DNA of 64,000 bases from Microbacterium sp. Leaf288. GTDB lineage: Bacteria > Actinomycetota > Actinomycetes > Actinomycetales > Microbacteriaceae. Both the position numbers and the translations under genes were made by a program. Below, piece after piece: positions 5,639 to 55,439 of the stretch (positions are counted from its first letter, which is position 1; the number at the start of each line of letters is the position of its first letter). The notes under the pieces were generated by a model. It was not told the origin of the DNA, searched no databases, and was given only the letters and a program-made list of their open reading frames with translations. The stretch spans positions 62,345 through 126,344 of the forward strand of contig NZ_LMNI01000012.1 in the NCBI RefSeq assembly GCF_001422925.1, given 5' to 3'.

Positions 5639-6691
5639 CTACTCCGAGGCGCGCCCGATGTCGGACAGCTGGCCGCGGCTGAGGCGGACGCCGACGCCCT
5701 GCACGAGCTCCTCGACGTGCTGCGGCGCGTACGCGTTCACGATGGGCGCCGTGACGAGCTTCTGCGAGAGCAGCCAGGCGACCGCGACGGCCGCATCGGG
5801 GACGCCGAGATCGGCGCCGACGGCGTCGAGCGCGCGCAGCGTCCGACTCCCCCGGCGGTTGAGGTTCGCCGCGAGCTGCGCGCCGCGCACCGAGAGGGCA
5901 CCACGGATCTTCGAGCGCTGCCGGCCGGCGAGGAACCCGTGCTCCAGCGCGTGCGACGGGGTCACCGCCATGCCCTGCGCCCCGGCGACGAGTCGCAGGT
6001 CGGCGTCGAACTCGTGGCGGCGCAGCACGTTGAACGGGACGTCGAGCACCGCGATCCGGGGGTAGCCCGCCGACGCGAAGATGCGCGCCTCGACGAGCTG
6101 CGCGGCGCTGTAGCCGATCGCGCCGAGCGCCCGCACCTTGCCGGTCTCGACGAGCCACTCCGCCGTGGCGAGCGTGTCTTCGAGCGACGATGCACGATCG
6201 GTGGTCGCGTCGAGGTAGAGGACGTCGATGCGGTCGGTGCGCAGGCGGGTCAGCGAAGCCTCGACGGCGCGCACGAGGTTGACCGGGCCCAGACCGGGGT
6301 TGTCGGCATGGCCGCCGACGCGAACGGCGAGGACGATGTCGTCGCGAAGGCCGCGGGACTGCAGCCACTGGCCGATGATGTGCTCGCTGCGACCGCTCGA
6401 GTAGCTGTCGGCCGTGTGCACGGCGTTGCCGCCCAGTTCGGCGTAGGTGTCGAGGATCGCGTGGCTCGACTCGAGGTCGACGTTCCACCCGAACTCGGCG
6501 GCGCCGAGGATCAGGGGGAAGATGTGCGAGCCGCTCTCACCGAGCGCGACGCGCACGTTGCTGCCGATCGAAGGGCCCTGCACGGGGATCGGAGCAGAGG
6601 GGTGCGGGCCGCGCACGACGGCGCCCGGCTGCGCGGGCGCGGCATCCGGACTCGACGACGGGAGCGTCGAGTCAACGCCGAAGTAAGCCAT
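5639..6691 (-). CDS. Aldo/keto-reductase-fold protein with degenerate catalytic tetrad
   Basis: A 350-residue protein with an unusual proline-rich N-terminal extension of about 50 residues, then an aldo/keto reductase barrel (ILGAAEFGWN, the SSGRSEHIIG turn, EASLTRLRTDRID, GKVRALGAIGYSA). The catalytic tetrad is mostly absent: the usual Asp of DTAxxY is His92, the Lys is Arg124 in LAVRVGG, and the His is Asp161 in LYLDATT; only Tyr97 remains. It is therefore probably not an ordinary oxidoreductase and may be a binding or regulatory protein. The ATG at 6691 has a GAGGGGG ribosome-binding site. Confidence 0.82.
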   Translation of the reverse strand: MAYFGVDSTLPSSSPDAAPAQPGAVVRGPHPSAPIPVQGPSIGSNVRVALGESGSHIFPLILGAAEFGWNVDLESSHAILDTYAELGGNAVHTADSYSSGRSEHIIGQWLQSRGLRDDIVLAVRVGGHADNPGLGPVNLVRAVEASLTRLRTDRIDVLYLDATTDRASSLEDTLATAEWLVETGKVRALGAIGYSAAQLVEARIFASAGYPRIAVLDVPFNVLRRHEFDADLRLVAGAQGMAVTPSHALEHGFLAGRQRSKIRGALSVRGAQLAANLNRRGSRTLRALDAVGADLGVPDAAVAVAWLLSQKLVTAPIVNAYAPQHVEELVQGVGVRLSRGQLSDIGRASE

Positions 6692-6850
6692 GTGCCACCC
6701 CCTCACGAGATCCCTTACGGGAGTCGTGATCACTATGCGCGCCCCCCGGCGCTTACACAAAGGGTAGGCCAGTCCGGACAGGGCGCCGTTCCCTGAGGCG
6801 AACTATGGATAAACATTACATAACGCTTTGGTCACGAAGGGCTGATCCCT

Positions 6851-6866
6851 AGGGGATATGTCCCCT
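6851..6866. repeat. Palindrome, possible operator
   Basis: Six-base arms AGGGGA/TCCCCT around TATG, about 160 bases upstream of the AKR-fold gene, next to the AT-rich promoter-like patch. It could be an operator; the protein that binds it is unknown. Confidence 0.3.
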
Positions 6867-6910
6867 GTTCGGCGGACACCATGCGCCAAGCACCTACCGG
6901 ACGACTTACG

Positions 6911-6946
6911 ACGGATGCCCGCCCCCTTTCGGGGACGGGCATCCGT
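6911..6946 (-). terminator. Hairpin terminator of pnp (GGATGC-core stem)
   Basis: Near-perfect stem of about 15 bp: ACGGATGCCCG plus CCCC pairs with GGGG plus CGGGCATCCGT around CTTTC, with one bulged base. It lies 35 bases past the pnp stop. Confidence 0.65.
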
Positions 6947-6980
6947 GATTCCAGACCGGCTATCACCGGACGGCGAGGAG

Positions 6981-9260
6981 TCAGCCTTCGGCGGGAGCCT
7001 CCGGGCCCTCGCTGGCCGCAGCGCGACCCTCCTGGTCAGCAGCCTCCTCGAGCACCGGCTCGAGCGAGAGCTTGCCGCGGTCGTCGATCTTCGTGATCTT
7101 GACGAGCAGCTTCTGACCCACAGAGAGCACATCCTCGACGTTCTCCACGCGCTTGCCACCGGCGAGCTTGCGGACCTCGCTGACGTGCAGCAGGCCGTCC
7201 TTGCCGGGCAGCAGCGAGATGAAGGCGCCGAACGTCGCGATCTTGACGACCGTTCCGAGGAACTGCTCGCCGACCTCCGGGTTGGTGGGGTTGGCGATGG
7301 CGTTCACCTGAGCGCGGGCCGCCTCGGCCGAGGGGCCGTCGGTCGCACCGATGTAGACGGTGCCGTCCTCCTCGATGGAGATCTGCGCGCCGGTCTCGTC
7401 CTGGATCGCGTTGATCGTCTTGCCCTTCGGGCCGATCAGCTCGCCGATCTTGTCGACCGGGATCTGCACGCTGATGACGCGCGGGGCGGTCGGAGCCATC
7501 TCGTCCGGGCCGTCGATCGCGGCGTTGAGCACGCCCAGGATCGTGAGGCGCGCGTCCTTGGCCTGCGTGAGCGCCGCGGCGAGCACCGACGACGGGATGC
7601 CGTCGAGCTTCGTGTCGAGCTGGATCGCGGTGACGAACTCACTCGTGCCGGCCACCTTGAAGTCCATGTCGCCGAGGGCGTCCTCGGCGCCGAGGATGTC
7701 GGTCAGCGCGGCGTAGCGCGTCTGGCCGTCGACCTCGTCCGACACGAGACCCATCGCGATGCCGGCGACGGGAGCGCGCAGCGGCACGCCCGCGTTCAGC
7801 AGCGACAGGGTCGAGGCGCACACCGAGCCCATCGACGTCGAGCCGTTCGAGCCGAGAGCCTCGGACACCTGACGGATCGCGTACGGGAACTCCTCGCGGC
7901 TGGGCAGCACCGGCACGAGTGCGCGCTCGGCCAGGAAGCCGTGCCCGATCTCGCGACGCTTCGGGCTGCCGACACGGCCGGTCTCACCGGTCGAGTAGGG
8001 CGGGAAATTGTAGTGGTGCATGTAGCGCTTGCTCGTGACCGGCGACAGCGAGTCGATCTGCTGCTCCATCTTGAGCATGTTCAGCGTGGTGACGCCCAGG
8101 ATCTGGGTCTCGCCGCGCTGGAAGATCGCCGAGCCGTGGACGCGCGGGATGACCTGCACCTCCGCGTCGAGCGGACGGATGTCGGCCAGGCCACGACCGT
8201 CCATGCGGACGCCCTCGGCGAGGATGCGACCGCGGACGATCTTCTTGGTGACCGACTTGTAGGCGGCAGAGAACTCGATCGTCGCGACGGCCGGGAGCTC
8301 GCCCGCCTCGACGGCGGCGAGGAGCTCCGCCTTGACGGCGTCCTTCAGCTCGTCGTCGGCGTTCTGGCGGTCCTGCTTGTCGGCGATCTGGTAGATCGGG
8401 ACGAGCTTGTCGTACGCGCGGTGCGCGACGAAGTCGTACGTCTCCTGGCTGTACGGCAGGAAGACAGGGAACTCCTTGATCTCCTTCGCCGCGGTGTTGG
8501 CGACGACGTTCTGCGCCGCGACGAGCTCCTTGATGAAGGGCTTCGAGGCCTCGAGGCCCTGCGCGACGATCTCCTCGTTCGGCTTGGTGGCCCCCGCCTT
8601 GATGAGGTTCCAGCTGTGCTCGGTGGCCTCGGCCTCGACCATCATGATCGCGACATCGCCGTCGGGCAGGACGCGACCGGCGACGATGAGGTCGAACACG
8701 GCCTCCTCGAGCTGGGTGACCGTCGGGAACGCGATCCACTGGTCGGCGTGCTCGCCGTGACCCGGGATGAGCGCGAGGCGCACACCGGCGATCGGGCCCG
8801 AGAACGGCAGACCCGAGATCTGGGTCGACAGCGAGGCAGCGTTGATCGCGAGCGCGTCGTAGAACTCGCCCGGCGCGATCGAGAGCACCGTGACGACGAT
8901 CTGCACCTCGTTGCGGAGACCGTCGACGAACGACGGGCGCAGCGGGCGGTCGATGAGACGGCAGACGAGGATCGCCTCGGTCGAGGGACGGCCCTCGCGA
9001 CGGAAGAACGAACCGGGGATCTTGCCCGCGGCATACGAACGCTCTTCGACGTCGACGGTCAGCGGGAAGAAGTCGAAGCCCTCACGAGGCGACTTGCCGG
9101 CGCTGGTCGCCGACAGGAGCATCGTCTCCTCGTCGAGGTACGCGGCGACGGCACCCTGTGCCTGCTGCGCGAGTCGTCCGGTCTCGAACCGGACGGTACG
9201 GGTGCCGAAGCGGCCGTTGTCGAGAACGGCCTCAGCGGCGGTGATTTCAGGACCTTCCAA
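6981..9260 (-). CDS. pnp: Polyribonucleotide nucleotidyltransferase (PNPase)
   Basis: A 759-residue phosphorolytic 3'-5' exoribonuclease, a core RNA-decay enzyme. Two RNase PH-like domains (about residues 10-240 and 345-570) flank an all-helical linker. Then come a KH domain with [17 protein letters not shown] (about residue 620) and an S1 domain ([20 protein letters not shown], near residue 690). Actinobacterial members are also called guanosine pentaphosphate synthetase. The start is TTG at 9260 with an AAGGAGAG ribosome-binding site. rpsO, the usual upstream neighbour of pnp, is not here but 26 kb away. The leader contains a strong hairpin that could be used for autoregulation. Confidence 0.98.
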
Positions 9261-9282
9261 GAGGTCTCTCCTTCTTTGTTTA

Positions 9283-9310
9283 GGCTCGCACGCGCGTTTC
9301 GCGCACGAGC
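9283..9310 (-). promoter_or_regulatory. Stem-loop in the pnp 5' leader
   Basis: On the minus strand GCTCGTGCGCG pairs with CGCGTGCGAGC (two G-U wobbles) around a short AAAC-type loop, about 25-50 bases before the pnp start. A competing small hairpin (CGCAC/GTGCG) overlaps it upstream. E. coli pnp is autoregulated through a leader hairpin; whether this one acts likewise is inference. Confidence 0.4.
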
Positions 9311-9496
9311 TTGTGCGAAGGAGCAGGAACAGGCAGATCTCGGCGCGCGGGAGTGCCGCGGGGTTCGCCAGCGCTGGTCACCAGTAGAAGATCACCCGAC
9401 GTCGTCCGGCGGGGAATCCACCACAGGGGACCAGCTTCCTGCCGGCCTGCTCCACAGTGCCCATTTGAAGCACAGTGCTCACATGTGGAATTGAGC

Positions 9497-9514
9497 GGTT
9501 GCCACACGGCAACC
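9497..9514. repeat. Inverted repeat GGTTGCC-ACAC-GGCAACC
   Basis: Perfect seven-base arms in the pnp/DUF5302 divergent region, about 75 bases upstream of the DUF5302 start. It could be an operator or a small hairpin. No factor is known to me. Confidence 0.35.
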
Positions 9515-9577
9515 CGCCCAAGCCTATCAGCAGCATGCCCGCTGACCCCCACCCTGGCGAGCGTCGGATGCCGCGCC

Positions 9578-9583
9578 TAGGGT
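9578..9583 (+). promoter_or_regulatory. -10 box TAGGGT of leaderless DUF5302 gene
   Basis: TAGGGT, six-base GGGGGC spacer, ATG at 9590. The same spacer occurs at the FAH-family gene (40885-40890). Confidence 0.55.
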
Positions 9584-9589
9584 GGGGGC

Positions 9590-9772
9590 ATGAGCACCGA
9601 CGAGAAGCCGGCGTCTGCGGCATCCGATGAGATGAAGCGCAAATTCAAGGAAGCACTCGACAAGAAGAACGCGAATCACCGCGAGGGCGAGGCCCACATG
9701 GATGGCGACTCCGCGATCCACGGCACGCACGGCGCGGTCACGAAGCGCGAGTTCCGTCGCAAGAGCGGATAG
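9590..9772 (+). CDS. DUF5302 small protein
   Basis: A 60-residue hydrophilic protein matching the DUF5302 pattern: a helical KRKFKEALDKKNA core, then GDSAIHGTHGAVTKREFRRKSG with a basic end. The family is small and actinobacterial, of unknown function. The FRRKSG tail resembles that of small cytoplasmic housekeeping proteins and carries no membrane or secretion signal. It is probably leaderless and forms a run with the two acidic mini-genes that follow. Confidence 0.85.
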   Translation: MSTDEKPASAASDEMKRKFKEALDKKNANHREGEAHMDGDSAIHGTHGAVTKREFRRKSG

Positions 9773-9781
9773 GAGCAGGCC

Positions 9782-9916
9782 ATGGTCTTCGACCCGACGT
9801 TCCACGAGATCTCGAACGAGGCCGACGAGCTGCCCGACCTGGACGGTCAGGACGACGCCCCTCCCCTCGCGGGCGAGATCGAGGAAGACGAGCTGCCGCC
9901 GTACGGCGAGCAGTGA
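9782..9916 (+). CDS. 44-residue acidic mini-protein, unknown
   Basis: A very small gene with an AGGAGCAGG ribosome-binding site directly before the ATG, nine bases after the DUF5302 stop. The product has many Asp and Glu residues and few basic ones (MVFDPTFHEISNEADELP at the start, DELPPYGEQ at the end). I do not recognise a family. Its regular spacing between two other small genes and its own ribosome-binding site support it as real; its base composition is like that of its neighbours. Confidence 0.6.
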   Translation: MVFDPTFHEISNEADELPDLDGQDDAPPLAGEIEEDELPPYGEQ

Positions 9917-9929
9917 TCGCGAGCAGGCC

Positions 9930-10115
9930 ATGAGCGACTTCCGAGAGCGGATCCCCGACGACGAGCGCGACGTGCCCGTCGACGACGGCGTGGAGTTCGA
10001 GCTCCCGCCGCCGACCATCGACCCGCTCGAAGCGGTCGAGGAGGACGTCGACGAGCTCGAACTCGAGGAGCGCGAGTCGGCGATCGAAGCCGGCGAGATC
10101 GCGCCGGACGACTGA
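9930..10115 (+). CDS. 61-residue acidic protein, unknown
   Basis: Starts 13 bases after the previous mini-gene with nearly the same upstream sequence (GAGCAGGCCATG), as though the ribosome-binding site had been duplicated. The product is strongly acidic (DDERDVPVDDGVEFELPPP, then EEDVDELELEERES) and probably partly helical. No family recognised. Acidity alone could suit a partner of a basic protein such as the tail of DUF5302, but that is speculation. Confidence 0.65.
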   Translation: MSDFRERIPDDERDVPVDDGVEFELPPPTIDPLEAVEEDVDELELEERESAIEAGEIAPDD

Positions 10116-10152
10116 ACGGGCGGGCGCGGGTCCGACCCGCGCCCGCCCGTTC
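10114..10152. terminator. Bidirectional terminator hairpin
   Basis: Perfect 18-base arms starting GAACGGGCGGGCGCGGG, three-base loop CCG, between the acidic protein gene and convergent dctA. The stem begins inside the TGA of the acidic gene. Confidence 0.75.
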
Positions 10153-10159
10153 CGTCCGC

Positions 10160-11611
10160 TCAGCGCGACAGCAGCTGCTCGCGTTCGCGGGCGCGGCGCT
10201 CCTTGGCTTCCGCCTCCGTGACGGCGGCCTCTTCGAGTCCCTGCACGCCGACCGCGTCCGCGGCGCGCGACATCCCGTCGTGACCGTCGCCCGACAAGGT
10301 CGTCTCGTCGAACGGCAGCTCCCCGGCGAGCACGCGGCGCGCGCGGGAGGCGTCGAACTCCTTCGTCCACGTGCCGATCAGCACCGTCGCGACGGCGTTG
10401 CCGGTGAAGTTCGTGAGCGCGCGGCCCTCCGACATGAACCGGTCGATGCCGACGATGACGCCGACGCCGTTCACGAGGTCGGGCCGGTACGCCTGCAGAC
10501 CGCCGGCGAGCGTCGCCAGGCCCGCACCGGTGACGCCGGCCGCACCCTTCGAGGCGATGATCATGAAGACGAGAAGGCCGATCTGCTGGCCGATCGACAT
10601 CGGGGCGCCCATGCCGCTCGCGATGAACAGTGAGGCCATCGTCAGGTAGATCGCCGTGCCGTCGAGGTTGAACGAGTAGCCGGTCGGCACGGTGATGCCC
10701 ACCACCGGCTTCGAGACGCCGAGGTGCTCCATCTTCGCGATGAGGCGGGGCAGCGCCGATTCGGAGGAGGACGTGCCGACGATGAGCAGGTACTCGCGGG
10801 CCAGGTACTTGATGAGGCTGAAGATGTTCACGCGGGTGACGGCGTACAGCAGGGTGCCGAGGACGCCCACGATGAAGAGCACGCACGTGATGTAGAACGC
10901 GATCATCAGCGTGCCGAGAGCCCAGATCGCGGCGATGCCGGTGTTGCCGACCACGGCGGCGATGGCGCCGAACGCTCCGATCGGCGCGAGCCACAGGATC
11001 ATGCCGAGGATGCGGAAGACCAGCGCCTGCAGGTGCTTCACCGCGTTCATGATCGGCGCCCCCTTGTCGCCCATCTGCTGCAGCGCGAAGCCGACGAGCA
11101 GGGCGATGAACAGGACCTGCAGCACGCTCTCACCGGTGAAGGCCGAGAAGAACGTCGTCGGGATGATGCCGAGGATGAACTCCTGGGTCGTCTTCGCCTC
11201 GGCGGTCGCCTCGTAGGTGGCGCTCGCCATGTTCAGGCCCTCGCCCGGGTGCAGCAGGTTGCCGACGACGAGGCCGATGGCGAGCGCGAATGTCGACATC
11301 ACCATGAAGTACAGCAGCGCGAGACCGCCGATCTTGCCGACGGTGGCCGCTTTCGCGATGGATCCGACACCCACCACGATCGTGCAGAAGATGATCGGCG
11401 CGATCATCATCTTGATGAGCGCGACGAAGCCCTCGCCGAGCGGCTTGAGCGCGACGCCGACGTCGGGCCAGACCAGCCCGACGATCGCGCCGAGGACGAC
11501 GGCGGCGATGACCGAGAGGTAGAGCCAGGTGTGCTTGTCCCACGCCTGCTTGCCACGTCTCCAGTTGAAGCCGGGGAGCGTGAAGGACGTGGTGCGGGTC
11601 GAGAGAGCCAT
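10160..11611 (-). CDS. dctA: C4-dicarboxylate:cation symporter DctA
   Basis: A 483-residue membrane carrier of the dicarboxylate/amino acid:cation symporter family, taking up succinate, fumarate, malate or aspartate. Visible hallmarks: about eight membrane helices, the first region HTWLYLSVIAAVVLGAIVG, the serine-rich reentrant loop GTSSSESALPRL (near residue 285) and the NLDGTAIYLTMA block (near residue 315). Two ATGs are adjacent; the second (11611) has the better distance from AGGAGG. A DcuS/DcuR-like two-component system is divergently encoded, which strongly suggests the substrate class and the regulation. Confidence 0.94.
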   Translation of the reverse strand: MALSTRTTSFTLPGFNWRRGKQAWDKHTWLYLSVIAAVVLGAIVGLVWPDVGVALKPLGEGFVALIKMMIAPIIFCTIVVGVGSIAKAATVGKIGGLALLYFMVMSTFALAIGLVVGNLLHPGEGLNMASATYEATAEAKTTQEFILGIIPTTFFSAFTGESVLQVLFIALLVGFALQQMGDKGAPIMNAVKHLQALVFRILGMILWLAPIGAFGAIAAVVGNTGIAAIWALGTLMIAFYITCVLFIVGVLGTLLYAVTRVNIFSLIKYLAREYLLIVGTSSSESALPRLIAKMEHLGVSKPVVGITVPTGYSFNLDGTAIYLTMASLFIASGMGAPMSIGQQIGLLVFMIIASKGAAGVTGAGLATLAGGLQAYRPDLVNGVGVIVGIDRFMSEGRALTNFTGNAVATVLIGTWTKEFDASRARRVLAGELPFDETTLSGDGHDGMSRAADAVGVQGLEEAAVTEAEAKERRAREREQLLSR

Positions 11612-44085: not shown

Positions 44086-44994
44086 GCGGCGCTTGCGTGA
44101 GAACGCCTCGAGTCGCTCCTCTGGCGTGAGTCGCGACATCCGCTCGACCCATTCGGCGGAGAAGACATCGCCGGTCGGCGCGTCGACGACGGGCACGACG
44201 GCGTGGGTGATCGTGTCGTCGTAGACGTGCACGAGGTGGAACGACTGGCCGGCGTCCATGCCGTTGACGTCCGCCGCGGGGCGCGCCAGGTTCATCGTGT
44301 AGCAGGTGGCTGCAGCCACGCTCACCGGGACGCCCGCGAACGTGCCGCTCGTCGAGTAGTGCAGGTGGCCCGCGAGGATCGCGCGCACATCGGTGCCGGC
44401 GATCACGTCGGCGAGTCGCCCCTGTTCCCGAAGCTCGAGGATGTCGAACAGCGGCACGTGCGACGGCAGCGGCGGGTGGTGCAGCGCAAGGATCGTGCCC
44501 AGCGGCGCCGGCGTCGCGAGCTCACGGCGCAGCCACTCGAGCTGCCCGTGGTCGAGATCGCCGTGATGCCAGCCGGGCACCGTCGAGTCGAGACCGATCA
44601 GCCGCAGCCCGCCGAGATCCCATACGCCGGTCACGGGCTCCTCGGTCGGCTCCAGCCCGAGGAGGTCGCGCCGCAGCGCCGGGCGCTCGTCGTGGTTGCC
44701 GGCGACCCACACCACCGGGGCTCCCAGTCGCTCCGCCACCGGCCCCACCGCGGCGCGCAGAGCGGTGTACGCCTCGGGCTCGCCGAGATCCGTCAAGTCG
44801 CCGGTGAACACGATCGCGTCGGGACGGATGCCGGTGGCCTCTGCCGCCTCGAGCGTCCGGGCGAGGTTCGCCGCGGTGTCGAAACGGCCGCCGAGCGGCG
44901 CGTTGCCCGCGAGCAGGTGCGTGTCGCTCACGTGCAGCAGCGTGCGCCGCGCAGGCGGGTACTGACCGAACTGGACGGGTGCGGCGGTGGCCAT
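44083..44994 (-). CDS. Class III cyclic-nucleotide-type metallophosphoesterase
   Basis: A 303-residue calcineurin-like phosphoesterase of the CpdA/Rv0805 group. Metal-binding motifs occur in order: LHVSDTHL, VFTGDLTDLG, AGNHDER, LALHHPPLP and LAGHLHYSTSG. Such enzymes hydrolyse cAMP or other cyclic nucleotides and 2',3'-phosphates; the exact substrate is undetermined. ATG 44994 lies seven bases after a TAGACT -10 box, which rejects longer readings. The next gene upstream ends 10 bases away. Confidence 0.92.
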   Translation of the reverse strand: MATAAPVQFGQYPPARRTLLHVSDTHLLAGNAPLGGRFDTAANLARTLEAAEATGIRPDAIVFTGDLTDLGEPEAYTALRAAVGPVAERLGAPVVWVAGNHDERPALRRDLLGLEPTEEPVTGVWDLGGLRLIGLDSTVPGWHHGDLDHGQLEWLRRELATPAPLGTILALHHPPLPSHVPLFDILELREQGRLADVIAGTDVRAILAGHLHYSTSGTFAGVPVSVAAATCYTMNLARPAADVNGMDAGQSFHLVHVYDDTITHAVVPVVDAPTGDVFSAEWVERMSRLTPEERLEAFSRKRR

Positions 44995-45001
44995 GCGGCC
45001 G

Positions 45002-45007
45002 AGTCTA
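45002..45007 (-). promoter_or_regulatory. -10 box TAGACT of leaderless phosphoesterase gene
   Basis: Minus strand TAGACT, seven-base spacer, ATG at 44994. The box lies within the stop codon region of the preceding large regulator gene. Confidence 0.5.
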
Positions 45008-48000
45008 TTCGGGCAGCGCGGACGGAGCGCCCTTCGAGCAAGCGGGGTCATGTGGTCGGTCCGCGAAGACCTCCTGCCACTCTTCCTCGCTGAGGCCGCG
45101 CCCGGCGATCGCACAAGCCCGTTCGACCCAGATGTCAGGGTCGTCGGCGGAGACCCTCACGTGCCCGCCGTTAGGGAGAGCGTAGGTGAGGGCGCGCTCA
45201 TCCCTCAGGGAAGGCTGGCCGCTGAGATCCCGAATCACGCGGAACGACTCGGTCCAATCGTCCAGCGCCCAGGTGAACAGTGCTCCGTCCTTGCCTGCCG
45301 TCACAAGTTCGCCCGTCGAACGGAACGCCAGCGCCCGGACGATGCCGCGATGGCCGGCGAGGACCTCCAGCAGGTCGCCGGTGCGCGCTCGCCAGAGCCA
45401 CGCTCGGTCCCCCGAGGCGGTGGCGACGTCGGTGCCGTCGGGGCTGAATGCGCCGTCCACGACGTCGGCATCCATCTCGAGAAGACGGGACCGAGACGGA
45501 TCCGCGAGGTCGACGATGCGCGCCGCCTGGCGGCCCTCGCGCAGGAGAAGGGTCTGCCCGTCGGGGCTGACCGCGAGCAGACCGTCGCCTTCGATCTCGT
45601 CGAGGAGCGCGCCGTCCGCCGTATCGAAAACGGCGGTCGGGCCGAATCCGCTCGCGTACAGCCGCGTGCCATCGGCGGAGAACCGCACGCGTCCGAACGA
45701 GTTCGCCCAGCTCGGTGGTCCTGGGTTGGTCCCCGCCTGCGGGAGCCGGAGCAGCAGCGGCTCGTCCGGCGTGTCGACCCGCCAGACGGCGACGTTCGCA
45801 CCTTCCGCCATCCACGGGAGCGGCGCGATCATCGCCGCCAGCGACTCGTCGCGCGAGTACTCGATGTCGAGCACCTCCGAACCGAACACGGGAAACGTCA
45901 GCTCGCGAGCACTCCCGCGGCCGATGTCGAAAGTGCGGAGGTCGGGCGCCTCGCACCAGCCGCTGCCCCCGCAGTCGCCCTGCATCACGCTCAGCGCGAT
46001 CCCCCCGCCGGGTCCCTCGGCGGCGTCCAGGACGATCCCTCCCCCGACATCGGCGACGGCGATCGGGGCTCGCTCATCGAGGTCGATGACACCGGCGGTG
46101 ATCGTGTCGTCGATGACCAGCACAGTGGAGTCGTCGCGACCGAGCATCATCGTCTCGATGCCCATGTTGTCGCCCAGTCGCGTCACGCTCGCGATGCGCG
46201 GGCTGCGCTCCATGATGTCCAGGAGAGACCTGCGTGTCGCCGGCGCATCCCAGAGGCGGATCGCCTCCACCGCCATGAGGAGCGCGCGTTCGTACACGGG
46301 CTCCGCGGCGGCGAGAGCGGCGACCCGACGCGCATCGTCCATCACGGCCCGCTCGTTGGCCACCGACGTCTGCACCGCCGCGAGGGCCCCCGCCGCGAGC
46401 GCCACCACGGCGAGCGCGGCGGTCGCGCCGGCCAGCCAACGCAGGCGCCGGACGGAGCGTCGCTCCCGCTGCAGCTGATCCCGCGTGGCATCGAGATCAG
46501 CCGCATCTCGCTCGACCGAGGCGTCCAGGAACGCGACCTCGACCGGGGCGAGCACCGGCTGCGCCGACTCCCGCCACTGAACGGCGGCGCTCAGTCGGCC
46601 GCCACGGTAGAGCTCGCTGTCGGGTCGACTCATCTCCTCCCATGCGGTCGCTGCGGCGTTGAGATGACGCATGGTCCGCTGCCCCTCGACATCGTCGGCG
46701 AGCCACTCCTGCAGACGGGGCCATTCACGGGCGACAGCCTCGTGCGCCAGCTGGAAGGAGTCCTCGTCGCTGGTCACCAGGCGGGCATCCACCAACCGCT
46801 CGGCCACGCGCGCGTGAGACTCGTCGACCGCGACCGTCGCGCGGTCCACACGCTGACAGATGACTCCACCGCCGCGGGAAGGCTCCACGAGCCGGAGCAG
46901 GATGTCGCGTGCCAGTCCTGCGCCCTCGTGCGACAGATCAGCGAACATCTCCTCGGCCGTCTGCGCGACGGCGCCGTCGATCTCCCCCGACGCGTGGTAG
47001 CCGTCGATGCTCAGCACCCGTCCCTCGCGTCGCTGCCACACCTGGTACAGCGCGTGCGACAGAAGCGGCAGACTCCGCCCGTCCGCGTCACGCACCAGGA
47101 CTTCCACCAGCCCCGGCTCGAGGATGAGTCCTGCCTGCCGCGCGGGCTTCTCGATCGCTGCACGCAGACCGTCAGCCGAGAGCGGACCCAGCATCATCAG
47201 GTGAGACTGGATGAGCCCCGCGAAGCCGTGGTGGTCGGCGAGATCGCCCAGCCGGTCCGCGCGGATCACCATCACGAGCGGACCCTGGAACACCAGTCGG
47301 CCCATTTCCTCGAAGAACCGACGGGTCTGATCCCGATCGTCGATCGCGAACGCCTGCTCGCACTGGTCGACGATCAACAGCGACTCGCCGTCATGCCGCG
47401 TGAGCTCGCGCAGCACCTCGAGCGGACGCTCTCCGGGCGTGACGACCGTCACCCGCCTGCCGCGCGCCGCGTAGTGCGCTGCGATCCCGGCGCGGACGAA
47501 CGACGACTTTCCGACCCCCGACGACCCCGAGACGACCAGCACGGCGTGCCGTTCCAGCTCCTGAAGCGCGCGGTCGAGCTCGTCTTCACGCCCGAAATAG
47601 CGCTCCCCGTCGTCCGCGCCGGCGGGTGGGAGGCCGAAGTACGGACACTCCGCGCTCGCCGTGCGAAACGCGGCCGCCGACTGCAGTTCGGGGTCCTGCC
47701 GGAGGATCGCCTGCTCGAGCGTGGCGAGCTCGGCGCACGGGTCGAGGCCGAGCTCGGTCGCGAGCAGCTCGCGTCCACGACGGATCGTGGCGAGTGCGTC
47801 CGCCTGACGTCCCTGGCGATACTGCGCGAGCCCGAGGATCACCCAGCGGCGCTCCCGCATCGGCGATTCCGCGACACGGGCGCGCGCTTCGGCGGCCGCG
47901 TCGACCAGGTCACCCGACTGCAACCGCGCCTCCAGCAGAGATTCCTCCGCCGCAAGGCGGATCTCGTCCAGCCGATCGGACTCGATGCGCGCGGGCTCCC

Positions 48001-48409
48001 AATCCTGCAGCTCGGCGAACGGCTGTCCTCGCCAGAATCCGAGTGCCTCCGAGAGAGAGTGGGCCGCGCGATCCGGCTCATTCAACTCGAGCAGCCGCGA
48101 GCCGCGCTCGACGAGCCGCACGAATTGCGCGGCGTCGAGTTCGACCGCCGCGGGTGCGAGGGTGTACCCGGCCGCCGTCGTTGCGATCGCGGCTTTCGGC
48201 AGTTCTCTGCGCAGACGCATGATGCAGCCCGGGATCACCTTCGACCACGACGCGGGCAGCGCGTCACCCCACACCGCGGTCGCGATCGCCTCGACTGTGA
48301 CCGCTCTGCCGATCCGTGCGGCGAGTGCTCCCAGCACGAGACGATCACGAGGGGGGAGCGCGATCCGGCCTTCGTCGAGTGTCAACGCCCCCAGTACACG
48401 GAGGTCCAT
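45005..48409 (-). CDS. Large regulator: BTAD + STAND NTPase + membrane helix + WD40-like repeats
   Basis: A 1134-residue multidomain protein. Residues about 1-90: OmpR-like winged helix (DLRVLGALTLDEG); about 95-240: bacterial transcriptional activation domain (TPR-like, RGQPFAEL); about 270-560: STAND NTPase with Walker A VSGSSGVGKSS (near 300) and Walker B SLLIVDQCEQAF; about 656-680: one hydrophobic helix; about 700-1080: beta-propeller-like repeats (ISPDG-type strands such as AVSPDGQTLLL and AFSPDGTDVATAS); the WVERACAIAGR tail is typical. AfsR-type regulators resemble its N-terminal half. The helix would anchor a DNA-binding protein to the membrane, an odd design. Ligand and targets are unknown. 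Confidence 0.9.
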   Translation of the reverse strand: MDLRVLGALTLDEGRIALPPRDRLVLGALAARIGRAVTVEAIATAVWGDALPASWSKVIPGCIMRLRRELPKAAIATTAAGYTLAPAAVELDAAQFVRLVERGSRLLELNEPDRAAHSLSEALGFWRGQPFAELQDWEPARIESDRLDEIRLAAEESLLEARLQSGDLVDAAAEARARVAESPMRERRWVILGLAQYRQGRQADALATIRRGRELLATELGLDPCAELATLEQAILRQDPELQSAAAFRTASAECPYFGLPPAGADDGERYFGREDELDRALQELERHAVLVVSGSSGVGKSSFVRAGIAAHYAARGRRVTVVTPGERPLEVLRELTRHDGESLLIVDQCEQAFAIDDRDQTRRFFEEMGRLVFQGPLVMVIRADRLGDLADHHGFAGLIQSHLMMLGPLSADGLRAAIEKPARQAGLILEPGLVEVLVRDADGRSLPLLSHALYQVWQRREGRVLSIDGYHASGEIDGAVAQTAEEMFADLSHEGAGLARDILLRLVEPSRGGGVICQRVDRATVAVDESHARVAERLVDARLVTSDEDSFQLAHEAVAREWPRLQEWLADDVEGQRTMRHLNAAATAWEEMSRPDSELYRGGRLSAAVQWRESAQPVLAPVEVAFLDASVERDAADLDATRDQLQRERRSVRRLRWLAGATAALAVVALAAGALAAVQTSVANERAVMDDARRVAALAAAEPVYERALLMAVEAIRLWDAPATRRSLLDIMERSPRIASVTRLGDNMGIETMMLGRDDSTVLVIDDTITAGVIDLDERAPIAVADVGGGIVLDAAEGPGGGIALSVMQGDCGGSGWCEAPDLRTFDIGRGSARELTFPVFGSEVLDIEYSRDESLAAMIAPLPWMAEGANVAVWRVDTPDEPLLLRLPQAGTNPGPPSWANSFGRVRFSADGTRLYASGFGPTAVFDTADGALLDEIEGDGLLAVSPDGQTLLLREGRQAARIVDLADPSRSRLLEMDADVVDGAFSPDGTDVATASGDRAWLWRARTGDLLEVLAGHRGIVRALAFRSTGELVTAGKDGALFTWALDDWTESFRVIRDLSGQPSLRDERALTYALPNGGHVRVSADDPDIWVERACAIAGRGLSEEEWQEVFADRPHDPACSKGAPSALPE

Positions 48410-48415
48410 GACGAC

Positions 48416-48444
48416 ACTGTGAAACTCGCGCCGGTATCCGTCAA
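48416..48444 (-). promoter_or_regulatory. Promoter TTGACG-N17-CACAGT of the STAND regulator
   Basis: Minus strand: -35 TTGACG (48439-48444), 17-base spacer, -10 CACAGT (48416-48421), then six bases to ATG 48409, which suggests a leaderless mRNA. The palindrome pair lies 10 bases beyond the -35. Confidence 0.45.
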
Positions 48445-48450
48445 GGACCC

Positions 48451-48498
48451 CGATATCAGGCTGATACCCGCGCGAGCTCGACCGATATCAGATTGATA
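48451..48498. promoter_or_regulatory. Two palindromes, 32 bases apart (candidate activator sites)
   Basis: CGATATCAGGCTGATA at 48451-48466 and CGATATCAGATTGATA at 48483-48498: direct copies that are themselves palindromic (TATCAG-G-CTGATA; TATCA-GAT-TGATA). Their 32-base centre spacing is about three helical turns, so both face one side of the DNA, upstream of the -35. SARP/BTAD proteins bind direct repeats in this position, so the gene's own product is a plausible ligand. Confidence 0.55.
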
Positions 48499-48550
48499 GA
48501 TGCTGCTCGCGGAATGACGATGCCGGCGGCCTGGTTGCAGGCATCCGTCC

Positions 48551-52499: not shown

Positions 52500-55439
52500 T
52501 CAGTCGTGTGCGGGCGCAGCCGGCGCGCGAGCACGGGCGAAGGCGGCGGCCTCCGTGCGGTTGGCCACGCCGAGCTTCGTGAGGATCGAGGACACGTGGA
52601 TCGACGCCGTCTTCGGGCTGATGAAGAGCTCACGGCCGATCTGCGGATTGGTCATGCCACGCGCGACGAGCTCGAGGACCTGTGACTCGCGTTCGGTGAG
52701 GGACGCGATCCTCGAGCCCGGGTCGCCGCCCAGACCGGCGCGGGCCGCGAGCTGCGCGGCCCACCGCGCGACGAGCGCGTCGCCCTCGGCGCGGGCGGAA
52801 GCACCCAGCTCCGCGAGCGTCGCCTCCGCGCCGGCGCGGTCGCCGCACTCGACGAGCGCCTCCGCGAGGCGGAGCGTCGCCAGGTGCACGAACTGGACCG
52901 CGAGGCCTTCGCCCGCGCGCACCCCGGCGAGCACCGCACGCCACGCGGCGAGGCGGGACTCGACGGCGGCATCCGCCGTCGACTCGGCTGCGACGAAGTC
53001 CACGAGCACCGCAGCGACGCCGCGAATCGTCGGCGGTGACACCAGCGCCATGACGTCGTCCCTGATCTGGGAGATCCCGTGGTCCAGTGACGGGTCGGCG
53101 CCGCTGACACGGCGGCCTTCTGCCACCAGCCACGCGCGGATCGGCAGCGACCACGGCCGCACCCACGGCTGCGTCTCGGCGGCGCGCAGCGCGGACTCCC
53201 GCGAGACGCCGGCGCGCACCAGCTCGAGCCTGCGGCGGTCGTCGGGCTCATCGGCGATGCGGACGAGCGCCTCCAAGAGATCGAGCCGCCGCCATCCGTA
53301 GTCCTCGTCCGGCACGTCGAGGACGTCGGGCATCTCGTCGTCGATCACACGCCGCTTCTCGGCGTAGGCCGCCGGTCGATCGCCCCACAGGTCGCCCTCC
53401 GCGAGGACGCGAAGGGCCGCCGACCGGTCGAACGGCACCACCAGGAGCTGCAGCGCGCGCTGCGCGTGAGCCTCGCTCTCTCCGAGCCGTCCGACAGGGA
53501 TCAGCGTGTGCGCCAGGCCCACGGTCGCGATGGCTCCGTGTCCGTGCTCACGCCCGATCTCGAGGGCCTCGCGACGCATCTTCTCGAAGCCCTCGGCGGC
53601 CTCCCGATAGCGTGCCTCGAAGAGAGCGATGCCGGCGAGCACCAGCAGGGCACGGTGCCTTCCGCCCGCGCGCGGCGTCACCTCGAGCGCCGCGTGCGCG
53701 GCGGCGGCGGCGAGTTCGTCGTCGCCGTCGTGCACGCGGCGAACCGCCAGATTCGTCAGGCAGATCGCGAGCGTCTCGGCATCGCCGGAGTCGCGTGCGA
53801 TCGACACGGCGTCCTCCAGCGAGGCGATGTCGTGCCGGCCGCTGATGCTGCGCACGCGCGCGAGCTGCGCCAGCGCGGCCGAATCCGTGCGGCCGACGAG
53901 CAGCGCGTCCGCTTCGGCGAGTGCCTGTTCATCGGCTCGGATGCTGATCCAGCCTTCGCACATCACGAGCCACCAGAGTGCCGTCGCGCGTTCGACCGGG
54001 TCGCTCGGTCCGGGAAGCGCGAGCGCTGCGGTGACCACCGAACGCGCCTCGAGGTAGTCGCCGGCGTGCCAGAGGTACTCCGCCGCACGTCGCAGCACCT
54101 CCATGCGCGACGCACCGCCGACCCGGTCTTGCGCGTCGGGGACGTCATCCCACCACTCGGCGAGGCGGCGCCAGAGCGCTGCTGTCGTCGACGGCGCGAG
54201 TTCGGAGCCGGGCTGGGCGAGACACCGCACCGTGGCGTCGAACGCAGCAGGCACGTCCCCGGACCTCGCCCGATGCTCCGCGACCGCGGCCAGGGTCGAG
54301 AACGACGCGCCGGCGCGCTCGAGCGCATCGGCGTAGGCCCGGTGGGCGTCACGACGCACGCCGGGCAGCACGTCGCCGTACACCGCCTCGCGCAGCAGCG
54401 CGTGGCGGAAGCCGTATCCGGTCGCCGTGACCGTGATGAGCCCTCGCTCGAGCGCCTCCCGGACGCCGTCGTCGAGGACGGTGCGGTCCCCTCCCGACAC
54501 CCGCAGGAGGATGTCGTGGTCGACGTCGTCGCCGCCGACGGAGAGCAGTGCGACGATCTGCCGTGCCCCGGGCGAGGTGCCGCGGTACCGGAGCAGCAGC
54601 AGGTCGCGCAATGGCCCCGGCAGCTCCTCCGCCTCGAGCGACACGAGCTCCTCGACGAAGAACGGCACCCCGCCGCTGCGCGCGGCGATCGCGTCGGTGT
54701 CCGCACGGGAGAACCGGCCCGGCGCGATCGCCTCGATCTGGCTGCCGACCTCCGCGCCGGAGAGCCGCGCGAGCTCCAGGTGCTCGATGTCGCGGCGGCC
54801 CTCGAGCGCCACGACGCCCGACAGCATGGTCCGGCGCGCCACCTCATCGGACCGGTAGGTCAGCACGACGGTGAGATGGCGACCACGACGGGTCATCGCG
54901 AGCAGCGTGGCGAAGGATGCAGTGAGGGCGTCCGCCCAGTGCAGGTCCTCGACGACGACCACGACATGGAACCTCTCGCTGAGGCGCTCCACGACGGTCT
55001 CGATCGTGTCCGAGACGAGGTCGGAGGAAGGCTCGATCGATTCGGGCGCGACCGTCGCCGAGGCTTCCGCGAGTTCCGGAACCAGCACGCCCAGAGTGCG
55101 CAGCACACCCGGTGATGCCGATGCGACGTCGAGCAGCCCGTCCCCCACGCCGGCCCGCAGATCACGGAGCAATCCCCGCAGCGCGTGGAACGGCGGTGCA
55201 CCGTCACCACCGTCGACGCACTGCGCCGTCGCCACCACCACAGGCGGATCGTCTGCCGCCGCGTCGGCTCGCAACGCCCGGATCGCCTCCTGGACGAGCC
55301 GGGTCTTGCCGATCCCCGCCTCGCCCCGGATCACCATCGCGCGCGGAACCCCGCCTCTGCCGTCCGCGAGCGCGCGGCGCAGCGCCTCGAACTCCCCCTG
55401 GCGTCCGATCAGCACGGGACTCACGGCCACCCCAGCCAC
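52500..55439 (-). CDS. LuxR-type large ATP-binding regulator (LAL, MalT-like)
   Basis: A 979-residue transcription factor. N-terminal AAA-type ATPase: Walker A RGEAGIGKTR (near 40), Walker B VVVVVEDLHWAD (near 160). A long TPR-like helical region follows (about 350-880). The C-terminal LuxR HTH is canonical: LTERESQVLELVARGMTNPQIGRELF, then SPKTASIHVSSILTKLGV. LAL proteins sense a ligand through the middle region; the ligand and regulon are unknown. The GTG at 55439 or that at 55424 may be the start; neither has a clear ribosome-binding site. It stands alone between convergent and tandem genes. Confidence 0.92.
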   Translation of the reverse strand: MAGVAVSPVLIGRQGEFEALRRALADGRGGVPRAMVIRGEAGIGKTRLVQEAIRALRADAAADDPPVVVATAQCVDGGDGAPPFHALRGLLRDLRAGVGDGLLDVASASPGVLRTLGVLVPELAEASATVAPESIEPSSDLVSDTIETVVERLSERFHVVVVVEDLHWADALTASFATLLAMTRRGRHLTVVLTYRSDEVARRTMLSGVVALEGRRDIEHLELARLSGAEVGSQIEAIAPGRFSRADTDAIAARSGGVPFFVEELVSLEAEELPGPLRDLLLLRYRGTSPGARQIVALLSVGGDDVDHDILLRVSGGDRTVLDDGVREALERGLITVTATGYGFRHALLREAVYGDVLPGVRRDAHRAYADALERAGASFSTLAAVAEHRARSGDVPAAFDATVRCLAQPGSELAPSTTAALWRRLAEWWDDVPDAQDRVGGASRMEVLRRAAEYLWHAGDYLEARSVVTAALALPGPSDPVERATALWWLVMCEGWISIRADEQALAEADALLVGRTDSAALAQLARVRSISGRHDIASLEDAVSIARDSGDAETLAICLTNLAVRRVHDGDDELAAAAAHAALEVTPRAGGRHRALLVLAGIALFEARYREAAEGFEKMRREALEIGREHGHGAIATVGLAHTLIPVGRLGESEAHAQRALQLLVVPFDRSAALRVLAEGDLWGDRPAAYAEKRRVIDDEMPDVLDVPDEDYGWRRLDLLEALVRIADEPDDRRRLELVRAGVSRESALRAAETQPWVRPWSLPIRAWLVAEGRRVSGADPSLDHGISQIRDDVMALVSPPTIRGVAAVLVDFVAAESTADAAVESRLAAWRAVLAGVRAGEGLAVQFVHLATLRLAEALVECGDRAGAEATLAELGASARAEGDALVARWAAQLAARAGLGGDPGSRIASLTERESQVLELVARGMTNPQIGRELFISPKTASIHVSSILTKLGVANRTEAAAFARARAPAAPAHD

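Follow-up and report, generated by a model that had tools for sequence, protein, structure and literature searches.

How a bacterium could carry a signal from outside the cell to a single promoter with a single protein is the question raised by a minus-strand gene in Microbacterium sp. Leaf288. The gene lies within a 64,000-nucleotide stretch of contig NZ_LMNI01000012.1 (hereafter the window) and encodes a 1134-amino acid protein, here called the regulator, in which a winged helix-turn-helix (wHTH) and a BTAD domain are followed by a STAND NTPase, a membrane helix and a propeller; paired sites precede its promoter. Our analysis indicates that it is probably a transmembrane one-component SARP/STAND regulator, with a propeller predicted outside the cell, a STAND switch and a SARP half that would bind the repeats at its own promoter.

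Results

Direct repeats upstream of the regulator gene

A 32-bp step separates two near-identical 16-mers, at 48451-48466 and 48483-48498; the 16-mer pattern, even when one mismatch is tolerated, occurs at only those two places in the window, and 0 of 100 shuffles reached two matches. The first-pass annotation had described them as two phased palindromes in a setting suited to SARP-type activators. To place them in register, 28 promoters were compared, in two sets of 14, the window type and a paralogue type with about 38-47% identity, taken from a protein search of 149 genus genomes and 398 family genomes together with genome contigs. Duplicate loci were dropped before counting (L007, which equals the window, and L033, L035, L036 and L038, which equal L011, L009, L010 and L031, respectively).

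Autocorrelation up to the -35 element peaked at 32, 11, 43 and 21 bp (z 9.2, 6.9, 6.3 and 6.0) in the window-type promoters and at 11 and 22 bp (z 6.9 and 5.8) in the paralogue type; in the window itself TATC recurs at offsets 0, 11, 32 and 43. An 8-bp direct repeat at lag 11 exceeded shuffles (P < 0.05) in 21/28 promoters, and a perfect 13-bp palindrome at the repeats beat shuffles in three (the window, L026 and L037; L023 has one elsewhere). The locus L045, found after these counts, fits as well, with GGTATGC repeats 11 bp apart and 22 bp before TTGAC. Across relatives the units are therefore best read as direct repeats of about 8 bp at 11- and 21-22-bp steps rather than as palindromes, and such spacing (lags of 11, 21, 32 and 43 bp in one type, 11 and 22 bp in the other) is the signature of SARP targets. 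It is the relatives' promoters that support this reading for the window. The two sites 32 bp apart and their SARP-type setting thus hold, and the palindromic description applies to few relatives. The first-pass annotation had held that absence of the sites upstream of orthologues would tell against it; the repeats are clear in 12 of the 14 window-type promoters, lost in L011 and degenerate in L012. Where relatives carry a divergent gene, the upstream pair, TATC-N5-GATA, is readable on both strands, and some symmetry at this pair may be functional.

Covariation of recognition helix and repeat

Against AfsR the SARP half gives an alignment (E 3.1e-22) that is gap-free across the recognition helix, with AfsR R92, R94 and K95 corresponding to R65, R67 and R68 of the regulator, and AfsR T88 to G61. 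The residue at AfsR position 88 was tabulated against the repeat in 33 loci, including five from a class-wide search. That search gave matches in 20/394 genomes and 22 new loci; promoters were examined for the nine whose match reached the N-terminus, of which L042, L043, L044, L046 and L060 were counted as fitting, and the start of L048 was not placed. Glycine (18 loci, one without repeats) accompanies TATC-A/G, with L013 and L012 deviating, and threonine (8 loci, one without repeats) accompanies GGTACT in all seven loci that retain repeats. Asparagine is found with ATATC (4/4 loci), isoleucine with GGTATCC (2/2 loci, in two separate tree positions) and serine, in a single locus, with GGTACA/GGTATA.

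Six genomes (G000, G045, G062, G087, G110 and G709) carry at least two of these classes, every gene with its own repeat. Shared promoter ancestry alone does not explain such genomes well, and nothing else in these sequence comparisons argues as strongly for each protein reading its own promoter. Because the repeat changes with the AfsR-88 residue, also between paralogues within these six genomes, autoregulation by the regulator appears well supported.

The window's own genome (G000, 4.75 Mb) encodes a second membrane STAND-SARP protein at L064 (C10:772000-786000; regulator at 6332-10564, 1411 amino acids, 41% identical) behind GGTACT repeats; beyond a divergent gene for 68 amino acids lies a 1081-amino acid secreted protein with lamin-tail and metallophosphoesterase domains. 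At about 1594 of L066, on the minus strand, another GGTACT repeat pair and then TTGACG precede a frame that is cut short at the edge and probably belongs to a third tandem paralogue of G087.

Domain architecture and predicted topology

The nSTAND1 profile scored 301 bits against a cut-off of 27.1, and the Walker A and B motifs expected of the nSTAND1 clade are present: a Walker A-like GSSGVGKS (residues 295-302) and LLIVDQCE (344-351) are conserved among the 12 aligned orthologues, the nearest of which, from M. ureisolvens, is 85% identical over the alignment. Besides BTAD, Pfam placed a Trans_reg_C-like wHTH at residues 15-77 (25.9 bits, narrowly below the cut-off of 26.2) and a WD40 repeat at residues 1012-1047 (25.8 bits, below the cut-off of 27). 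An N-terminal OmpR-type wHTH followed by BTAD is the arrangement of the SARP domain family, and AfsR and EmbR match residues 10-245. An AlphaFold2 model had a mean confidence score (pLDDT) of 60, with the propeller part good, mostly 75-93. Foldseek matched the C-terminal part to the WD40 domain of PkwA (5yzv_C, E 3.8e-15, TMt 0.82) and also to seven-bladed propellers.

One hydrophobic stretch, the membrane helix of Table 1, stands out in the regulator. Among 19 full-length proteins (12 of the window type and 7 paralogues), a single helix at about 652-681 does so in every one, flanked by a net charge of +2 to +6 on its N-terminal side and of -3 to +1 on its C-terminal side. Beyond the helix the cysteines number 2, 4 or 6, an even count in all 19, and N-terminal to the helix the count is odd in 14 proteins and even in the other 5; in L033, which has two post-helix cysteines, both members of the first pair are gone together. 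We take the even counts as disulphides in a propeller outside the cell, bearing in mind that the 19 proteins are related to each other and therefore not independent. Hydropathy, charge and cysteine parity, consistent in 19/19, predict a propeller outside and a DNA-binding half inside, the layout of a membrane one-component regulator. The domain order given by the first-pass annotation is thus borne out by Pfam, hydropathy and the structure model: its membrane helix is seen in the hydropathy profile, the structure prediction that it had proposed for the C-terminal half returned a WD40-type propeller, and its notion of a self-contained sensing and transcription device gains support.

Promoter core

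TTGAC starts exactly 35 bases before the start codon in 27/28 promoters and, with the five class-wide loci added, in 31/33 (L034 and L046 have it at -36, the latter with the hexamer TTGCGG). From the start of the final repeat to TTGAC the distance is 11 bp in the window type and 22 bp in most paralogues, and a CACAGT or CACACT-like -10 lies 6 nt before the start codon. A Shine-Dalgarno (SD)-like string is absent in 29/33 loci, and in the remaining four it sits in the spacer or the -10, so that the transcript is apparently leaderless. A sigma-70 scan did not find the promoter because its -10, CACAGT, scores 3/6. In the window-type promoters a GATGTCGG-like element 9 bp before the -10 is conserved, near the position that the SARP rule assigns to the 3' repeat. 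For L024 the ATG next to the promoter was used, the regulator's own start being 38 bases further; near 5445 of L065 (L024), this leaderless ATG starts a frame of 8 codons that stops short of the regulator's ATG and is possibly an upstream reading frame.

A putative private operator

Exact matches to TATCAGNNTGATA in the own genome were confined to the two window sites. Allowing up to one mismatch, TATCRGNNNGRTATCRG returned the two window pairs and C11:598750, a place about 100 bases before a sequence that by eye resembles signal recognition particle RNA; it was considered as a further target and taken as chance. The pattern TATC-N7-TATC-N7-TTGAC, with up to two mismatches, occurs at 7 places in the own genome, of which the window's alone is free of mismatches. 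A 22-base promoter pattern with two mismatches was found in 4 of 148 genus genomes, once each and always at the orthologue promoter (reversed control 0), and it missed G101, which lost the repeats. The genome-wide search for TATCAG-N-CTGATA pairs that the first-pass annotation had proposed likewise led to the regulator's own promoter and to no regulon. No regulon of the site is visible in the own genome or the 148 genus genomes, within the limit that weaker targets would escape such patterns, and by these searches the operator is private. A palindromic stretch, TATCGCTAGCTTATCTAGCGA, occurs at both G000:C11:661679-661705 and G000:C13:162705-162731 and appears to be an operator or recombination site that belongs to another system.

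The divergent exported partner

Eight window-type relatives (L009, L010, L028-L032 and L037) carry an intact divergent gene for a lipoprotein of about 240-246 amino acids, which is broken in L034. Pfam gave no family for five of these lipoproteins (one weak match, E 0.38), and a PDB sequence search gave 0 matches. A structure model, whose input alignment included the L034 row with its first 50 or so residues out of frame, has the PsbP/Mog1/LpqN fold (2xb3, E 6.2e-5; LpqN 6e5d, E 1.9e-3; Z 9.2 for both); it shares with these proteins the model fold and no sequence match, and a shared fold shows no function. Other divergent products are unrelated and exported: membrane-anchored in L012, secreted in L013 and L044, lipoproteins in L020 and the N class, exported peptides of 52-54 amino acids in L016, L017 and L021, and in L018 a product with a Tat-like signal seen by eye. 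By reading, 25/33 loci, including 5/5 class-wide ones, have an exported divergent partner, a reading supported by repeated SD sites and conserved families; L008, L014, L019 and L023 have a 68-69-amino acid protein without a signal, and the window, L026, L027 and L011 have no partner.

In L009 and L028 the lipoprotein gene lies between the regulator gene and the same small membrane-protein gene as in the window, and this synteny shows that the lipoprotein was lost on the way to the window, L026 and L027. No lipoprotein homologue was found in the own genome. In the tree, window-type modules of Arthrobacter, Cellulomonas and Microbacterium mix (L029, L030 and L032 versus L009), which suggests horizontal transfer of the two-gene unit. 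In Arthrobacter nitrophenolicus SJCon (L034, 4068-8352) frameshifts interrupt the regulator as well as the divergent lipoprotein, through either draft error or decay of the whole module; the locus was used uncorrected.

Table 1. Features of the regulator gene and its promoter (window coordinates)
Feature	Position	Strand	Description	Basis
Regulator gene	45005..48409	minus	1134 aa, ATG start; wHTH-BTAD-nSTAND1-membrane helix-propeller	ORF, translation, Pfam, alignment of 12 orthologues
Recognition helix region	48206..48241	minus	residues 57-68 (KVIPGCIMRLRR)	AfsR alignment, AfsR DNA contacts (PMC10936776), variation table
BTAD	47702..48139	minus	residues 91-236	Pfam PF03704, E 2.2e-32; AfsR/EmbR matches
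nSTAND1 NTPase	46619..47644	minus	residues 256-597	Pfam PF20703, E 2.5e-89; alignment of 12 orthologues
Membrane helix	46373..46429	minus	residues 661-679	hydropathy; net charge +5 in 15 residues before, -1 in 15 after
WD40-like beta-propeller	45140..46204	minus	about residues 736-1090, predicted outside; cysteines 813, 819, 1099, 1124	model, Foldseek, cysteine parity
Direct repeat 1	48493..48500	minus	CTATCAAT, most upstream	sequence; register from promoter comparison
Direct repeat 2	48482..48489	minus	GATATCGG, 11 bp after repeat 1	sequence; register from promoter comparison
Direct repeat 3	48461..48468	minus	GGTATCAG, 21 bp after repeat 2	sequence, promoter comparison
Direct repeat 4	48450..48457	minus	GATATCGG, 11 bp after repeat 3; TATC begins 11 bp before -35	sequence, promoter comparison
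-35 element	48439..48444	minus	TTGACG, exactly -35 from start codon	conserved in orthologues
Spacer element	48431..48438	minus	GATACCGG (most orthologues have GATGTCGG), 9 bp before -10; may be another, degenerate site	promoter alignments
-10-like element	48416..48421	minus	CACAGT, 6 nt before ATG; apparently leaderless	SD-like string absent

An open frame of 1169 amino acids on the plus strand (window 44987-48496) spans the whole regulator gene in antisense and seems to be a consequence of high G+C coding bias, not a gene. On the minus strand at 52500-55439, 4 kb from the regulator, a 979-amino acid protein has an N-terminal P-loop and a LuxR-like C-terminus and by eye is a LAL-type regulator.

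Discussion

A mechanism consistent with these results would begin outside the membrane, where the propeller would sense a ligand or a partner protein. The signal would pass through the single helix to the nSTAND1 NTPase, whose nucleotide state could free or arm the SARP half, as we infer from AfsR and MalT. This half would bind the 11-bp-spaced GRTATCRG repeats head to tail, just upstream of its own -35, and would thereby control the leaderless transcript of the regulator gene. In relatives the same control would extend to the divergent gene, which encodes an exported protein and shares this upstream region; in the window's lineage, where the exported partner is gone, the regulator's own promoter would be the only visible target. 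Since each paralogue has its own repeat sequence, the circuits would be insulated from one another. Because the repeats lie upstream of a good TTGAC, we favour activation over repression at this promoter.

Several observations weigh against this mechanism. The helix/repeat classes follow the tree, with four changes, the least possible, so that the covariation is supported by a small number of independent events. Model confidence is poor in the STAND part and the membrane helix (pLDDT under 50). The window's sites taken alone fit better as a palindrome (6/6 pairs, P 0.024) than as a direct repeat (6/8, P 0.12). L011 and L018 lack repeats yet keep the gene and TTGAC, and the distant relatives L047 and L061 have no repeat within 200 bp. 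A crude export rule passes 32/99 control genes and exported candidates were preferred in the count, so the excess of exported partners is real only in part. Finally, the last clear repeat lies upstream of the -35 rather than 8 bp from the -10, whereas the general SARP rule places the 3' repeat 8 bp from the -10 in a box overlapping the -35 (PMC10936776). The repeats of PimR also depart from this rule, being described as not overlapping the -35 (PMC10972967), as in the regulator promoter; the departure therefore bars the label of a canonical SARP promoter only, not membership of the domain family.

The sites could instead be true palindromic operators at which an unrelated regulator, a TetR- or LacI-like dimer, simply controls the gene. 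In both the window and L026 their unit, TATCAGCCTGATA, has perfect palindromic symmetry (P 0.024 and 0.034), and two pairs 32 bp apart would suit two dimers, but most relatives lose the symmetry while the 11-bp direct repeat persists, the repeat tracks the regulator's own recognition helix and a second copy of the site was not found in the own genome. We rejected this as the principal interpretation and hold it to be distinctly improbable. That the gene is a relic in the window's lineage, its repeats only an echo of an older two-gene circuit, would agree with a genome that has neither a lipoprotein homologue nor another site, and with L011, which lost both partner and repeats. However, the frame is intact and 85% identical to that of L026, the STAND motifs are retained, and all four repeats survive partner loss in the window, L026 and L027, which makes a relic improbable.

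A different role for the divergent lipoprotein has also to be considered, namely that it is a partner of the sensor, a ligand-binding or inhibitory subunit of the propeller, and not a target, with autoregulation only balancing amounts. It is co-localised, exported to the same face and PsbP/LpqN-like in fold, and lipoprotein families differ between regulator clades, but the window's lineage keeps the regulator without it; we consider this somewhat unlikely, and it is compatible with the mechanism proposed above. Least credible is the reading that the protein serves defence or cell death, as a STAND protein whose transcriptional output is directed at phage. The nSTAND1 clade was named from predicted conflict systems (PMC8195603), and the first-pass annotation had pointed to such uses of STAND proteins, but PADLOC (2023 models) gave only two weak matches (E 0.0056, 13.5 bits; E 0.021, 12.3 bits), the neighbouring genes are ordinary and housekeeping-like, with synteny kept in L026 and L027, and Pfam shows no effector domain. 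We find no link to defence or programmed death here and regard such a role as highly improbable.

With these alternatives weighed, a transmembrane SARP/STAND regulator acting at its own promoter can be set beside known systems. ToxR/CadC-type membrane one-component regulators likewise have a cytoplasmic OmpR-type wHTH, one helix and an outside sensor; as generally described, they are set apart by having neither BTAD nor an NTPase switch. EmbR of Mycobacterium (wHTH-BTAD-FHA) shares the N-terminal fold (2fez, E 5.1e-22) and has an FHA domain in place of STAND, helix and propeller. PkwA of Thermomonospora, with a bacterial WD40 propeller, is the best bacterial fold match of the C-terminal part, but it is a kinase, and the likeness ends with the propeller. 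PimR and other SARP-LAL regulators also join a SARP half to an ATPase half, but they are without membrane helix or propeller and act in antibiotic clusters. The large SARP AfsR of Streptomyces coelicolor shares the OmpR-type wHTH and BTAD followed by a STAND-type NTPase, the 11-bp direct repeats (PMC10936776) and the helix residues R92, R94 and K95. It differs in its NB-ARC/NOD and TPR parts, in having no membrane part as described there and in a box that overlaps the -35, whereas the regulator has nSTAND1, a membrane helix, a propeller predicted outside, repeats upstream of the -35 and an apparently leaderless start. In AfsR the NTPase and TPR parts impose a restraint that ATP binding lifts (PMC10936776). 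Against the AfsR equivalog (NCBIfam NF053617) the regulator scored 124.8 bits, short of the cut-off of 1430. The parts (SARP, STAND and WD40) are thus known, and we rate their joining in a membrane regulator as a variant of the large SARP/STAND regulators; among open-licence papers, where absence is weak evidence, we found none on a membrane SARP or a BTAD-STAND-WD40 regulator.

We judge it evenly balanced whether the loci form a family across the Actinomycetes of transmembrane STAND-SARP receptors, each reading only its own promoter through its private 11-bp repeat and each accompanied by a divergent exported protein whose family varies, with AfsR-88 setting the repeat (TATC-R with G, TACT with T, TATCC with N and I, TACA with S). 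If it is true, a SARP recognition code would begin to emerge, and with it a collection of membrane receptors already insulated from one another. The covariation of helix and repeat, with several classes per genome, makes SARP specificity testable by single-residue swaps. The paired exported proteins would be a place to look for the signals of large SARPs. If the mechanism proposed above is right, the layout would stand between AfsR and CadC-type regulators, and actinobacterial STAND switches would serve beyond the cytosol, in single-protein receptors that carry an outside signal to one promoter.

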